37,303 nt of DNA from Paludibacteraceae bacterium (lineage in GTDB: Bacteria > Bacteroidota > Bacteroidia > Bacteroidales > Paludibacteraceae). Positions 32,090-37,303 of the stretch are shown one piece after another. The first letter of the stretch is position 1, and every line of letters begins with the position of its first letter. The position numbers and the translations under genes are program-made. The stretch spans positions 1 through 37,303 of the forward strand of contig JAFYWK010000080.1 in the NCBI GenBank assembly GCA_017558065.1. The letters run 5' to 3'. Below the pieces are notes generated by a model. It was not told the DNA's origin. It did not search any database and saw only the letters and a program-made list of their open reading frames with translations.

Positions 32090-32121
32090 TTTGTACAATT
32101 CAAAAAAATGTAGTACCTTTG
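32090..32121 (+). promoter_or_regulatory. Promoter of the secreted-protein operon
   Basis: TTTG (32090-32093), 20-base spacer ending aaaaaaatgtag, TACCTTTG (32114-32121), followed by ca. Confidence 0.88.
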
Positions 32122-32280: not shown

Positions 32281-32766
32281 ATGAAAAAAATCATTGTTTT
32301 ATCCTTGGCTCTGATGAGTGTTTCTGCTTTTGCAGCTCTCTCGTTGGTGGTGAAGCCCTTGTCGGGTGGCGAGTGCATTACAGCCTTAGGCAATATCGGT
32401 AAGATAGTTTATTCAGGAGATTCTATCTATGTGTATGATGCTGCTAAAACGCTCGTTTTTAGCGATTTACTCGCCAATGTGCAGCATGTGCGTTTCTCCG
32501 ACGAGCAGCCATCTACGCCTACTGGTGTAGAGGATCTTCAAAGCAACAACGCAACCAAAGTATTGGTTTATCCTAACCCTACGCAAGACCTGTTGCATGT
32601 GAAGGACGCGCAGGCAGATGTGGTGCGTTTATATACGCTTACAGGTAGTTTGGTGCAGACGGCACAAACAGAAAATGGTGAGGTGCAACTGAATGTATCT
32701 TCATACCCAGCAGGCAGCTACTTGTTGTTGTGTGGAAATGAAGCTTTTCAGGTAATTAAACAATAA
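32281..32766 (+). CDS. Small secreted protein with T9SS type A C-terminal sorting domain
   Basis: The 161-residue product has a Sec signal peptide (MKKIIVLSLALMSVSAFA), a short beta-rich mature part (about 20-78; KIVYSGDSIYVYDAAKTLVF) and a C-terminal domain of Por-secretion type from about 94: VYPNPTQDLLHV, VVRLYTLTGSLVQ, LNVSSYPAGSYLLL and a final VIKQ. Such domains direct export through the type IX system and anchoring or release at the cell surface. The passenger is very small, so it may act as a surface tether or partner for the next gene, which starts 10 bp downstream. Confidence 0.87.
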   Translation: MKKIIVLSLALMSVSAFAALSLVVKPLSGGECITALGNIGKIVYSGDSIYVYDAAKTLVFSDLLANVQHVRFSDEQPSTPTGVEDLQSNNATKVLVYPNPTQDLLHVKDAQADVVRLYTLTGSLVQTAQTENGEVQLNVSSYPAGSYLLLCGNEAFQVIKQ

Positions 32767-32776
32767 AAATATAGAT

Positions 32777-33808
32777 ATGAAAAAACTTTTCTTTTTTGTG
32801 GCTTTCGTAGCCATGAGTATGTTGAGCGTTGCTCAAGTAAATCAATTGGTATGGGCAAACGGTCGTTTGTTGTATGGTACTCCTGTGGAGAGTATGGATA
32901 GTTTGACTTATGATGAGATGCAAGATATAGACACTTTGCATTTGCTTTTGCCTCGTACATTGGTTAAAGTGATTCATGATACAGTGTATATCCATGATAC
33001 TGTGTATATCACTGTTCCTGGTGGTGAAGAGACTCCTTCTGTGGGTATAGGTGCTTTTTCTGTTAGTGAAACCAAACAAGTGACTTTCTCTCCAGGTAAC
33101 TTGCAATATACTCAATCTACCGACACATGGTCTTTTGCTGGTGCTCAGTATGAGGCGTTAGGAACTGATAATGTAACAGGTGGTAGTGTGGGATCTACTT
33201 ATGGTGATTCAAAAAAAGGTACTGCTTTGGCAGATAAGGTTGATTTATTCGGTTGGAGTACAAGTGCTACCAATTTTGGTGTAAGTACATCTACTGATTG
33301 TGAGAATGATTATTTAGGTTCTTTTGTTGATTGGGGTACGAATAAGATAGGTAATGATGCTCCTAATACATGGCGTACATTGACTGATACTGAGTGGTAT
33401 TATGTAGTATTTAATCGTCCAAATGCAAGTTCTCTTAAGGGTGTAGCTCAGGTGAATGGCGTAAATGGTTTGATATTGTTGCCAGATAATTGGGTATGTC
33501 CATCAGATATTACTTTTAAGTCAGGTTTCCACAGCAGTAATGGTGTTGATTATTATGCTGCTTATCAAACTTTTACCGCTGCGGAGTGGTCAAAACTAGA
33601 ATCCGCAGGTGCAGTCTTTCTCCCCGCTGCGGGCGAGCGTTACGGTACGAATGTAAGCCGTGTGCAGGACAGGGGCAACTATTGGTCTGCCACTTCGTAC
33701 AAGAGCGCCAGCGCGAGCAACCCCAACTTCAGCTCGAACGTAATGACGGAGAGCAACTTCTCGCGCGACTGCGGTCTCTCCATACGTCTTGTCAAGGATT
33801 TGCAATAA
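32777..33808 (+). CDS. Secreted FISUMP/C-type-lectin-fold protein with a DGR-like variable C-terminus
   Basis: The 343-residue protein has a signal peptide (MKKLFFFVAFVAMSMLSVA), a short N-terminal region with tandem HDTVYI motifs (about 67-78) and a C-terminal domain from about 90: FSPGNLQYTQ, TDTEWYYVV, LPDNWVCP, FLPAAGERYG, NYWSATSY and a final GLSIRLVKDL. This order is that of Fibrobacter-major-type (FISUMP) proteins and of the C-type-lectin/FGE-like fold used by many diversity-generating retroelement targets, where residues around the GxYWS core vary. From about 33600 codons shift to NNC/GC-rich forms (agc, aac, gac, ttc), unlike the T-ending codons before. There is no T9SS tail. Surface ligand binding is likely; variability is inferred. 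Confidence 0.82.
   Translation: MKKLFFFVAFVAMSMLSVAQVNQLVWANGRLLYGTPVESMDSLTYDEMQDIDTLHLLLPRTLVKVIHDTVYIHDTVYITVPGGEETPSVGIGAFSVSETKQVTFSPGNLQYTQSTDTWSFAGAQYEALGTDNVTGGSVGSTYGDSKKGTALADKVDLFGWSTSATNFGVSTSTDCENDYLGSFVDWGTNKIGNDAPNTWRTLTDTEWYYVVFNRPNASSLKGVAQVNGVNGLILLPDNWVCPSDITFKSGFHSSNGVDYYAAYQTFTAAEWSKLESAGAVFLPAAGERYGTNVSRVQDRGNYWSATSYKSASASNPNFSSNVMTESNFSRDCGLSIRLVKDLQ
32975..33010 (+). repeat. Tandem 18-bp coding repeat (HDTVYI twice)
   Basis: catgatacagtgtatatc and catgatactgtgtatatc are adjacent and differ at one base. They encode a short beta-strand-like linker after the signal peptide region. Confidence 0.8.
33632..33790 (+). other. Candidate variable repeat (VR) of a diversity-generating retroelement
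   Basis: Codons here are dominated by NNC forms (agc, aac, gcc, ttc, gac, tgc, tac), which is what substitution at adenines of AAC-type template codons leaves. The 3' invariant end catacgtcttgtcaagg lies where an initiation-of-mutagenic-homing sequence would be expected, just before the stop. Confidence 0.55.
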
Positions 33809-33814
33809 GAACAT

Positions 33815-33852
33815 CCCGATTTTGTTCGAAGCGAAGCCACGCCAAAATCGGG
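33815..33852. other. Inverted repeat 6 bp after the variable-protein stop
   Basis: Perfect 10-bp arms cccgattttg (33815-33824) and caaaatcggg (33843-33852) around an 18-base loop that has its own ttcg/cgaa pairing. DGR targets often carry a hairpin or cruciform just after the VR. Confidence 0.75.
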
Positions 33853-33868
33853 TGTGATACAACTGTAT

Positions 33869-33903
33869 TTTCTGTTGCTCTCCTCGGTGGGGAGCAACAG
33901 AAA
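33869..33903. other. Second strong hairpin downstream of the variable protein
   Basis: tttctgttgctctcc (33869-33883) pairs with ggggagcaacagaaa (33889-33903) over 15 positions with one G-T pair and a 5-base loop. No T-run follows on the plus strand. Confidence 0.75.
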
Positions 33904-34000
33904 TTCGCATTATAAAGGTCTGGAGTGTATCGTTATCCCGAGTGAGGGTATATAAAAGACAGGTTATAAGACAATTCGCTATAGTTAGCGGTAATATATA

Positions 34001-34031
34001 GAAAAAGACGAGGATCGTCCTCGTCTTTTTC
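34001..34031. terminator. Bidirectional intrinsic terminator between convergent genes
   Basis: Perfect 14-bp stem gaaaaagacgagga (34001-34014) / tcctcgtctttttc (34018-34031) with loop tcg; A-run and T-run flank it, so it can act for both the variable-protein operon and the dnaE/phosphodiesterase transcript. Confidence 0.92.
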
Positions 34032-34064
34032 ATTTACCTATAGGACCTATGGGGTTCATAGGGC

Positions 34065-34835
34065 TCATGGGATTTCCAGATAATCGGTGGTAACGTATTT
34101 GCAGCCGAGTTGGATGACACGCTCATAGTCTGCGATCTCATTCACAGTCCATGTGGCAACGGCTTTGCCCATCTGTTGGCTGCGTGCGATGACTTGCTCC
34201 GTCACAGAGGTGTGGGGTACACTCAGGGTCACGTTCCACTGTTCGCACCATGCATAATCCTCCTCTTGTACGTTATGACGTAGCCATTGGCAGGTGAGTT
34301 GAGGGTAGTGGGTGCGTATGTATTCTATGGACTGTTGCATGGAAGTTAGGATGACTGCCTCTTCTACCAATCCGTGCTTCTCAATGAGCGCATAGAGCGA
34401 TGGGAAGAGGGACATGTCGTTGTTGTTGATGCCTGTTGCCCATTTGAGTTCCACGACAGGGAAGACATTATATTCCTTGCAAATCTCCAAATAACGGTCT
34501 ACGGTGCAGATAGTAGCCGTATAGGTGACATCTTTGCGCGTTTGAGTAAGGGTGAGCGACAGGAGACTGTCCAGTGTGATGTTGGGTATGAGCACTTCCT
34601 CAATGCCTGCGCGTTGCAGATGGTCATCATGCCAGCAAACGCATTGACTGTCGAGGGTGGTTTTGACATCACATTCCAAACCTTGGTAACCATAGTGCTT
34701 GGCACCATTGATAAACGCTTCTTCGGTATTTTCTACGCCTAAAAGGCTGCCACGGTGGCCAATAAAAATGGGCTTTTCGCAGCAGGATTGTGCTATGAAA
34801 GTAATCATGCACAAGATAAAAAGATTCTTTTTCAT
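34065..34835 (-). CDS. Glycerophosphodiester phosphodiesterase, lipoprotein
   Basis: The ATG at 34835 gives a 256-residue protein with lipoprotein signal MKKNLFILCMITFIAQSC. The GDPD TIM-barrel signatures follow: FIGHRGSLLGVENTEEAF (His27, Arg28), LECDVKTT with metal ligands Glu54 and Asp56, the catalytic-type His69 in CWHDDH, FPVVELKW, and the final VTTDYLEIP. It hydrolyses glycerophosphodiesters to glycerol 3-phosphate and an alcohol, in the periplasm or at the outer membrane. An in-frame ATG at 34901 overlaps dnaE and adds an unlikely 22-residue extension. It starts 37 bp after the dnaE stop and is probably co-transcribed. Confidence 0.92.
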   Translation of the reverse strand: MKKNLFILCMITFIAQSCCEKPIFIGHRGSLLGVENTEEAFINGAKHYGYQGLECDVKTTLDSQCVCWHDDHLQRAGIEEVLIPNITLDSLLSLTLTQTRKDVTYTATICTVDRYLEICKEYNVFPVVELKWATGINNNDMSLFPSLYALIEKHGLVEEAVILTSMQQSIEYIRTHYPQLTCQWLRHNVQEEDYAWCEQWNVTLSVPHTSVTEQVIARSQQMGKAVATWTVNEIADYERVIQLGCKYVTTDYLEIP

Positions 34836-34872
34836 GGTATGGTTGTTATGTGAATTGATGTTTGATGGATTG

Positions 34873-37303
34873 TTATTGTACTGTATGTGTAAACACCTCA
34901 TCTATCTCCTGCATTTTAATCCAGTGGTAGAAGTCTTTGTTCATACGAATGGGTGGGGCAATGAGGGTGATGACATTCTGCTTGATGTCGTCGAAGACGC
35001 GCAAATGGAGGGCTGTTTCGCCTTTGTGTTGCTCGCAACACTCCGTCAGTTCATCAATGAGTGAGGGTTGGATATTCTCAATGGGGAGGTGGATCGTGAT
35101 TTGCTTAGCATGTTTGTGTGCATCGCTCATGAGATCCACCTGCTGTATCGATAGTTCGTATTCGGCTTCGGGTATAGCTTTGGGTTTGAACCAACGCTGA
35201 TTGGCACCATACTGCTGAATGATACCTGTGAGGAAGACATATACATTGGGTTTGAGCAGGCTGGCATACTGCTTGTATGCTTCGCCAAAGAGGGTGAACT
35301 GGTAACTACCCGAGTAGTCCTCAATGGTATATCTGCCGTATGGGTTACCTTTGCGGGAGGTCGCATCTTCTGCCTCTACGACGATACCGCCAAAGAAGAG
35401 CGGACGGTTCTCGTGCTGGGTAATCCATTGAGTAGGGTCGAGTTTCTCTTGCTCCTCATCGGAGTCAGTGTCCTCATCGTTGGTATTAGGGGTGAAAGCC
35501 GCACGCGCTTCGGGTTTGCGCCAAGCGTCGAACTGTGTGAGTTCGGCGGTTGTGATGGTGCATACATCGCGCACCTCCCATTCCCATTCATCCAGCGGGT
35601 GGGCAGAGAGGAAGATACCGATGAGGTTCTTCTCTTTGTTGAGTCGCTCCACTGCTGACCAGCGTGGCACGGGGAGGAGTTCGGGCAGTTGTATGTCAAT
35701 ACCGCCGCCTCCGCCCAGATCGCCGAAGAGGGACATGCTGTTGGCGGCTTGGTCTTGCTGGTACTTGTTGCCAAATCGAACCAAGACATCCAGCATATTC
35801 TCGCCTTTGGCGTTGATGCCGAAGAGTTGCTCGCGGTACATATTGTCGAAGCAGTCAAAGCCGCCAGCCAGTGCCAGACTCTCGATGGTCTTTTTGTTGC
35901 ATGCTTGCAGGTTGACGCGTTGTACGAAGTCGAAGATGTCCTTGTATTTGCCGTTCTTCTCGCGTTCTTCGATGATGGCCTCTACAGCCGCTTCGCCTAC
36001 ACCTTTCACTCCGCCCAGACCAAAGCGCACGTCGCCGTTCTTGGTGACGGTGAAGTTCAAGCCCGACTCATTGACATCGGGTGCGAGGACGGACATACGC
36101 ATGGCTTTGCACTCGTCCATGAACTTCGTTACATCCTTGATGTCGTCCTTGGCTACGGTCAGGTTGGCAGCCATAAACTCGGCAGGGTAGTGGGCCTTGA
36201 GGTAAGCTGTTTGGTATGCTACCCATGAGTAACATGCCGCGTGCGACTTGTTGAAGGCGTAGGAGGCGAACTTCTCCCAGTCTGCCCAGATCTTCTCTAG
36301 CACTTTTTCATCGTGTCCGTTGGCCTTGCCACCGTTGATGAACTTGGGTTTGAGTTCTGCCAGCATCGCCATGATCTTCTTACCCATGGCTTTACGCAGT
36401 TGGTCACTCTCGCCGCGGGTGAAGTTGGCCAACAAGCGCGAGAGAAGCATGACCTGCTCTTGATATACCGTCACACCATAGGTGTCCTTGAGGTACTTCT
36501 CCATGATAGGTATATCGTAGGTCACGGGCTCCAGACCATGTTTGCGCTTGATGAACTGCGGGATATAGTCCATAGGTCCTGGACGATAGAGTGCGTTCAT
36601 GGCGATGAGGTCACCCATGACGGTAGGTTTGAGCTCCTTCATGTACTTGCGCATACCTGCCGACTCAAACTGGAAGACACCGATGGTGCGTCCCTCTTGG
36701 AAGAGTTTGTAGGTCTCTGCATCGTCTTTCGGCACATGGTCAATGTCCACATCTATGCCGTGGCGCAGTTTGATATTCTTGAGGCACTCTTTGATGATAG
36801 TCAGGGTCTTGAGTCCGAGGAAGTCCATCTTGATAAGACCGACGTTCTCCACTACGTGTCCGTCGTACTGAGTCACGAGAATGCGTTGCTTACTGTCCTT
36901 ATCTTCGACGGTACTCAATGGCGCATATTTGGTGAGGTCATCCGCACCGATGATGACACCGCAGGCGTGGATACCCACTTGGCGCACGGTGTTCTCCAGC
37001 TGCTGTGCATAGTTGAGCATGGAGGCAATCTCGGGTTCGCCGCCATTGACGAGGTCTTTGAGTTCGGCTACATACTTGTAGCAGTTCTTGAGATTGACTT
37101 TGGGCGATTTGCCTTTCTCGTCTTTGATATTATCGGGGAAGCCGCGTTCGGGGATATAACTTTTGATTTCATTGACACGAGCGAGTGGAACGCGCTGTAC
37201 GCGTCCGACATCGGCGATAGCGGATTTAGCCGCCATAGCACCGTAGGTGATGATATGTGCCACGCGTGTCTTGCCATATTTCTCCGTAACCCAATCCAAC
37301 ACT
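34873..37303 (-). CDS. dnaE: DNA polymerase III alpha subunit (5' part outside the window)
   Basis: The frame is open to the window end, so about the first third of the protein (PHP domain and the first two catalytic aspartates) is missing. The visible 809 residues hold the rest of the C-family polymerase: HIITYGAMAAKSAIADVGRV, GIHACGVIIG, the third catalytic region IKMDFLGLKTLT, FQFESAGMRKYM, the NALYRPGPMDYIPQFI palm/thumb block, FNKSHAACYSWVAYQTAYLK, helix-hairpin-helix GLGGVKGVGEAAVEAI, and a C-terminal OB fold (RPLFFGGIVVEAEDATSRKG). An acidic insert (EDTDSDEEQE) separates the beta-binding region from the OB fold. Confidence 0.97.
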   Translation of the reverse strand, partial: VLDWVTEKYGKTRVAHIITYGAMAAKSAIADVGRVQRVPLARVNEIKSYIPERGFPDNIKDEKGKSPKVNLKNCYKYVAELKDLVNGGEPEIASMLNYAQQLENTVRQVGIHACGVIIGADDLTKYAPLSTVEDKDSKQRILVTQYDGHVVENVGLIKMDFLGLKTLTIIKECLKNIKLRHGIDVDIDHVPKDDAETYKLFQEGRTIGVFQFESAGMRKYMKELKPTVMGDLIAMNALYRPGPMDYIPQFIKRKHGLEPVTYDIPIMEKYLKDTYGVTVYQEQVMLLSRLLANFTRGESDQLRKAMGKKIMAMLAELKPKFINGGKANGHDEKVLEKIWADWEKFASYAFNKSHAACYSWVAYQTAYLKAHYPAEFMAANLTVAKDDIKDVTKFMDECKAMRMSVLAPDVNESGLNFTVTKNGDVRFGLGGVKGVGEAAVEAIIEEREKNGKYKDIFDFVQRVNLQACNKKTIESLALAGGFDCFDNMYREQLFGINAKGENMLDVLVRFGNKYQQDQAANSMSLFGDLGGGGGIDIQLPELLPVPRWSAVERLNKEKNLIGIFLSAHPLDEWEWEVRDVCTITTAELTQFDAWRKPEARAAFTPNTNDEDTDSDEEQEKLDPTQWITQHENRPLFFGGIVVEAEDATSRKGNPYGRYTIEDYSGSYQFTLFGEAYKQYASLLKPNVYVFLTGIIQQYGANQRWFKPKAIPEAEYELSIQQVDLMSDAHKHAKQITIHLPIENIQPSLIDELTECCEQHKGETALHLRVFDDIKQNVITLIAPPIRMNKDFYHWIKMQEIDEVFTHTVQ

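Follow-up and report, generated by a model that had tools for sequence, protein, structure and literature searches.

In diversity-generating retroelements (DGRs), a reverse transcriptase (RT) copies a template RNA with random bases placed opposite its adenines, and the 3′ end of a target gene is then overwritten with the cDNA. The closest described relatives of the locus reported here come from Treponema denticola, where, in the available part of the published account, isolates lacking both the RT and the template repeat (TR) keep target genes that bear a variable repeat (VR); these VRs differ from the templates of DGR-bearing relatives mostly at adenines, and the authors regard them as leftovers of a lost core system (PMC4891356). 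Our locus, from the genome of a Paludibacteraceae bacterium, resembles these leftovers in having a VR-bearing target with neither RT nor TR; as far as that account extends, it differs in phylum, in target protein, in the hairpins that stand behind the VR, and in having two sister genomes with partial modules, one with half a TR and one with the tail of an RT (PMC4891356).

DGR targets of the human microbiome, in the sections available from their description, include Fib_succ_major and DUF1566 domains (PMC4159848). Here, too, a Fib_succ_major-type C-terminal domain would be the region diversified in an exported protein; those targets were found through TR-VR pairs, whereas the window (the whole stretch of 37,303 nucleotides that we analysed) has no TR. 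In Bordetella phage BPP-1 a hairpin behind the VR is required for homing, by its structure and not its sequence, and phage DGRs have GC-rich stems of 7–10 bp with a 4-nt GRNA loop, according to the part of that study at hand (PMC3240598). The window shares with BPP-1 an inverted repeat just 3′ of the VR, likewise with structure kept rather than sequence, but its hairpins depart from the phage rule in having AT-richer stems of 10–12 bp and loops of 11 and 18 nt. In Pseudogulbenkiania, by the portion of the report available, distal target ORFs lie near a strongly mutated RT gene and are thought to be served by another RT in the genome (PMC3521204); both there and here targets stand beside an RT that has decayed or has probably been lost, but no cognate RT was found in our genome. 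Because the method of a global DGR survey is, in the part of its text available, blind to targets remote from an RT (PMC8144416), a target that has survived its RT can easily be overlooked. Within a limited literature collection, we found no paper pairing Paludibacteraceae with a diversity-generating retroelement.

Results

The window is contig C12 of an assembly (G000) of 2.44 Mb in 83 contigs, 94.5% complete, and the target gene sits in it between thrS and a GDPD gene. The features of the locus are as follows.

32090–32121, + strand: putative Bacteroidetes-type promoter, TTTG-N20-TACCTTTG, from a pattern search, upstream of the two-gene unit
32281–32766, + strand: gene for a 161-aa protein whose start resembles a signal peptide (by eye), with a type IX secretion sorting domain at its C-terminus (PF18962, E 1.2e-10)
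32777–33808, + strand: target gene, 343 aa, from the ORF list and translation
33616–33801, + strand: VR, homologous over its entire length to the TR of sister genome G067 (TR_G067)
33635 (start about)–33778, + strand: mutable core of the VR, with 22 codons aligned to template AAC/AAT and 1 to CAA
33779–33801, + strand: adenine-poor 3′ end of the VR, from the alignment to TR_G067; called an initiation-of-mutagenic-homing element by position only
33806–33949, + strand: remnant of the VR-TR spacer (144 bp), 89% identity with G067 across 146 columns; TR and RT absent
33815–33852, + strand: hairpin 1, 10-bp stem, beginning 10 nt past the last VR codon
33869–33903, + strand: hairpin 2, 12-bp stem without mismatch, loop of 11 nt

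The promoter pattern, which we take to be the Bacteroidetes-type consensus (TTTG-N20-TACCTTTG), has 13 matches in the window against 0.74 expected from shuffles. Ten bp separate the gene for the 161-aa protein from the target gene, and homologs of this protein stand directly 5′ of homologous target genes at L129–L132. When relatives were compared for an empty thrS-GDPD site, 2 of 30 (G070 and G103) had a GDPD match at threshold, and in G070 the GDPD gene alone aligns and its neighbours do not.

The C-terminus of the target protein reads ...GNYWSATSYKSASASNPNFSSNVMTESNFSRDCGLSIRLVKDLQ, and residues 221–341 make up a FISUMP-like C-terminal domain; the profile match, to TIGR02145 (FISUMP/Fib_succ_major), has an E of 9e-5 and lies below the TIGR02145 cut-off, and comparison with PDB sequences gave no match. 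An earlier sequence-only reading of this DNA had described a secreted protein of the FGE/C-type-lectin kind: the signal-peptide-like start, judged by eye, agrees with secretion, and the below-cut-off profile match speaks for a FISUMP/Fib_succ_major-like target, not specifically for FGE. The protein can be aligned with 14 homologs at 58–74% identity, and by their record titles the 14 nearest named loci belong to Paludibacteraceae bacterium (13) or a Bacteroidales bacterium (1), from the cecum, colon or rectum of deer, sheep, buffalo, yak or cattle.

Codon usage changes abruptly at about 33608, the fraction of codons with third-position C rising from 0.08 in the 277 codons before this point to 0.45 in the 66 after it while that of third-position T drops from 0.53 to 0.21. 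VR-type tails of the family have third-position C mostly at 0.41–0.55 (one at 0.36) and bodies mostly at 0.07–0.20. The shift is not a family-wide property because some paralogs lack it (L163, 0.11 to 0.12; L168, 0.18 to 0.14), among them one on contig C5 of the same genome (L027, 0.20 to 0.21).

A similarity search for the VR over 178 genomes of the genus, in which up to 4 candidates were scored per genome, identified two cassettes that are complete and have a homologous target, on contig 17 of G067 (L077/L134) and contig 43 of G078 (L060/L140), each with the target followed by spacer, TR and RT. The window shares with these cis cassettes (L134, L140) the homologous target gene, the VR, the spacer and the hairpins, but it has neither their TR nor their RT. 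Both RTs were identified by homology, and that of G067 contains YVDD and LPIGDLTSQLFSN, the latter of which we take to be a DGR hallmark. Between the G067 VR and its own TR there are mismatches at 27 of the 62 template adenines and at just one of the 124 other sites; for G078 the corresponding counts are 28 of 59 and 9 of 127, 4 of these 9 falling in the first 21 bases, where we placed the TR boundary. In L134 (1821–3209) and L060 (3116–4495) the RT reading frame is continuous through the TR, and the last ATG ahead of the RT core falls inside it (..ANMNNNNRNNG..); the TR may thus also encode the N-terminus of the RT.

Compared with TR_G067, the window VR is mismatched at 30 of the 62 adenines and at 24 of the 124 remaining sites (OR 3.8–3.9, p 5.2e-5, by Fisher tests that, like all Fisher tests here, assume independent sites), which is an adenine bias and not adenine exclusiveness. 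Since the off-adenine divergence (19%) is about that of the gene body from G067 (21%, 121/567), the excess lies at adenine sites. Within the 22 template AAC/AAT codons, the window has changes at position 1 in 10, position 2 in 12 and position 3 in 5, as compared to 31, 23 and 67 of 189 codons in the gene body; positions 1 and 2 together are changed above the body rate (p 2.3e-7), and position 3 is changed less often, though not significantly so (5/22 versus 67/189, p 0.17). Among 5 of the 6 TRs compared, TR_G067 fits the window VR best; odds ratios were 2.9 for TR_G078, 2.2 for TR_G058a and 2.1 for TR_G009, and against the distant TR_G148 the bias was not significant (22/48 versus 55/138, p 0.29). 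The tail is, on the strength of these alignments, the VR of a DGR. The sequence-only reading had both noticed the codon change and proposed that the gene ends in a DGR-like variable repeat, and the codon counts and the adenine-biased divergence from sister-species TRs bear it out.

The family to which the target belongs is large, with a match at E 1e-25 in 143 of the 178 genomes, and divergent, and its other tails served as controls. Plain tails (L061:2509-1808, L163, L168, L170:635-1399 and L027) show no codon shift, odds ratios of 0.9–1.5, and position-3 changes in 15–20 of 19–22 template AAC/AAT codons as opposed to 5 of 22 for the window VR. By itself, adenine bias cannot decide the matter, because several tails without a codon shift are moderately biased as well (p 0.004–0.04): L167 (OR 2.6, p 0.004), L180 (2.4), L172 (2.2), L174 (1.9 and 2.1), L170:1550-2323 (2.0) and L175 (1.9 and 1.9). 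VR-type tails were therefore sorted from plain ones by shift, bias and homology jointly, the sorting being drawn from the same table as the controls. The odds ratio of the window lies below those of nearly all other VR-type tails. Within the same genome, the window VR differs from the first of two paralog tails on contig C11 at 38 of 62 template adenines versus 28 of 121 other sites (p 4.8e-7) and from the second at 35 of 62 versus 34 of 121 (p 1.8e-4); pairwise, the three VR-like tails of this genome differ at 26–34 of 121 off-adenine sites.

Some paralogs have unusual architectures. The C11 gene (L023, 3789–5438, - strand) encodes a 550-aa lipoprotein-like paralog with two tandem family domains, each with a VR-like tail. 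On contig C44 of G067 (L061) a 1667-aa open frame contains several family domains, with one clear VR-type tail and one plain tail. In L142 (1117–2004) the N-terminus of the target protein (first 210 bp, 83% DNA identity) is fused to another tail, YWSSS..RSVRPVCQ.

The sequence-only reading had also placed the RT and template elsewhere in the genome, where a near-copy with adenine-only mismatches should lie beside an RT, and in this it found no support. Over the whole assembly, the window VR as query (E up to 10) matched the window itself, C11 and short noise, and the TR_G067 query found, besides the window itself, a single C11 tail and noise; all candidates (7 of 7 and 10 of 10, respectively) were scored and none is a TR. 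Because no more than 4 candidates from each genome were scored in the multi-genome searches, this full scoring was carried out for G000 and G062. No RT match lies within the window, and the single RVT_1 gene of the assembly, on contig C83, shares 32–35% identity with the RT of G067 and is part of a different DGR, which has its own target and a non-matching RGGSW...GFRVVL template. The TR and cognate RT are thus absent from the 94.5% complete assembly. C11 was rejected as a template, both of its matches being coding sequence of the two-domain paralog with numerous off-adenine differences, and the C83 DGR was rejected as the writer of the window tail, its TR fitting another target family. This separate and apparently complete DGR (L001, 1–2440) consists of a target, presumably FGE-like by its motif, an HRDC-domain ORF resembling the C-terminus of RecQ, the RT, and a TR behind the RT that is mismatched with its own VR at 18 of 31 adenines and 1 of 104 other sites.

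Behind the VR, the first 116 columns of the spacer remnant are 95% identical to G062, and homology to the G067 spacer stops about 150 bp short of the expected start of the TR. Because the right end of the presumed deletion has no homology to the sequence after the G067 RT, we infer the deletion rather than see it end to end. A 12-bp stem such as that of hairpin 2 occurred in 1 of 500 shuffled sequences. Hairpin 1 has lost, in the window, one inner pair of an 11-bp consensus stem. Covariation was assessed in 7 chosen sequences, all with intact stems, leaving out the broken-stem motifs of G074_C110, G069, G070_C12 and G078_C18 as well as G078_C43, which is nearly identical to G062; in this set the outer helix of hairpin 1 has both-sided changes at 5 of 11 pairs, and pairing is found in 92.9% of cells versus 84.9% in shuffles, with no excess of further pair types (5 versus 5.8 in shuffles). 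The stem is, by these counts, apparently kept by paired changes among relatives. In the four targets with broken-stem motifs, which have no adjacent RT, it is the first stem that is broken. An Rfam search returned one miRNA match, far below its cut-off. Because the BPP-1-type 4-nt loop is absent here, it is from their position that the hairpins may be assigned a role in homing.

We surveyed 22 loci and studied the 13 with a VR-type tail (L129–L141, 2.7–6.5 kb downstream covered); an RT lies within the downstream stretch covered at 2 of these 13. By genome, RT and TR are present in cis in 2 of the 14 with a clear VR-type tail (G000, G024, G027, G048, G050, G062, G067, G069, G070, G072, G073, G074, G078 and G155), a tally that leaves out G084 (OR 2.9) and distant VR-leaning tails, among them L169, L171, L173, L176 and L177. 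Intermediate stages are found in two genomes. In G074 the spacer is followed by a TR piece of 87 bp at 98% identity and then by unrelated sequence, and at E 1e-10 nothing in this genome matches the RT of G067; in G155 the spacer runs into a 116-column match (88% identity) that covers the last 48–49 bp of the RT frame and extends about 67 bp past it. The target frame is open at every stage of loss named here. A search for RVT_1 at E 0.001 in 8 VR-type genomes found none in 6 (G062, 99% complete with 6% contamination; G070, 98% complete; G155; G072; G027; G050), and G074 and G048 carry RTs elsewhere; G024, G069 and G073 have RTs on other contigs, 40–48% identical to that of G067. A second, distant VR-type target is present in G067 (C44) and in G078 (C18).

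In G062, where all candidates were scored, no TR was found, nor was an RT, yet its VR is mismatched with TR_G067 at 26 of 62 adenines and 2 of 124 other sites; therefore, targets without a discoverable writer can look freshly written. From the VR of G067, which is another species, the G062 VR differs at 28 of 62 adenine sites and 1 of 121 off-adenine sites. The RT-less targets of G062 (C5), G072 (C65) and G024 (C20) (L133, L063 and L064) belong to three species but occupy one shared site, next to a tRNA-like sequence, with short flank pieces 94–100% identical, longer ones 77–81% and bodies 76–79%. Their hairpin sequences differ, which hints at cassette replacement by recombination, and because recombination fits too we rejected this shared site as proof that VRs diversified after the loss. 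Also set aside were 22-bp matches to the VR 3′ end in G012, G122 and G136 and short matches in G034 and G055, all in unrelated genes.

Discussion

We consider it probable that the window VR is the orphan of a DGR cassette whose TR and RT have been lost, its tail being one fixed variant that now evolves ordinarily. The ancestral cassette would have had the order target gene, hairpins, spacer, TR and RT, as in G067 and G078, and diversification would have altered residues of a secreted FISUMP-like domain, perhaps that of a surface binder. In the lineage of the window, the TR and RT would then have been deleted, or left behind while the target was copied, and the target gene, the VR with its 3′ end and both hairpins would have stayed; the protein would now be one fixed variant, no longer actively diversified and evolving like that of an ordinary gene. 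The assembly contains the VR and the spacer remnant and lacks TR and cognate RT (about 5% of it being missing), and relatives have the complete cassette. That the tail is frozen is suggested by the absent writer together with how far the three tails of this genome diverge from one another off adenine. Among the observations that count against such an orphan are these: the missing part of the assembly could hold a TR-RT module, both hairpins are retained as they would be in a usable target, and the adenine bias is low among VR-type tails.

Alternatively, the window could be an active remote target, with TR and RT in sequence missing from the assembly or in another element and the tail still rewritten in trans. 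The hairpins and VR 3′ end still present would suit this, as would the nearly template-like off-adenine sites of the G062 VR in a genome where TR and RT were not found, and the second distant targets of G067 and G078. However, the assembly has neither TR nor cognate RT, and the three VR-like tails of the genome differ from one another so often off adenine that no single template can have written all of them recently. A phage or viral source was likewise rejected, with no match to phage records at E 1e-5 and 0 of 59 candidate stretches in viral contigs confirmed. We therefore regard present-day writing in trans as unlikely.

One could also envision, in this genus, a pool of RT-less targets that carry recognition hairpins, move between paralogous sites and species, and are diversified again, in trans or through recombination with live cassettes, at times when a writer is at hand. 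This leans on the comparison of the G062 and G067 VRs, which differ across species almost exclusively at adenines, and we hold it to be speculative and, if anything, a little less likely still.

Less likely again, in our estimate, is that only the target and its hairpins arrived here, through paralog recombination or interspecies transfer, and that in this lineage the copy never had a TR and RT beside it. The right flank of the window (33991–34900) has no match in the 31 other sequences compared, several of which represent the same place, and the compared targets therefore sit at other sites; the shared tRNA-side site of G062, G072 and G024, with its different hairpin sequences, hints at replacement by recombination; and the T. 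denticola authors, in the part of their report available, name the same alternative (PMC4891356). Truncation of a cassette would fit the 144-bp spacer that ends short of the TR at least equally well, however, and real truncation scars exist in G074 and G155. Finally, that no DGR is involved, and that the tail is simply a rapidly evolving C-terminal surface such as a paralog family may have, its odd codon usage stemming from recombination, is as good as refuted, for although the family is large and divergent and some unshifted tails are moderately biased, this would require the G067 and G078 TR-VR pairs, with their near-perfect adenine-only mismatches, and their homology to the window to be chance, and the five plain paralog tails show neither the shift nor the sparing of position 3.

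Leftover DGR targets and Fib_succ_major-type targets are already known; what this genus provides are unusually clear intermediate stages. In a gut Bacteroidales genus, the full cassette, the half template, the RT tail, and the spacer with its hairpins can be seen side by side. The combination of a codon shift with hairpins 3′ of the gene offers a sign by which orphan VRs without an RT may be annotated. These stages also make a question testable: does a target that has lost its diversifier settle on a single variant and serve as an ordinary binding protein, or is its tail still rewritten from elsewhere?
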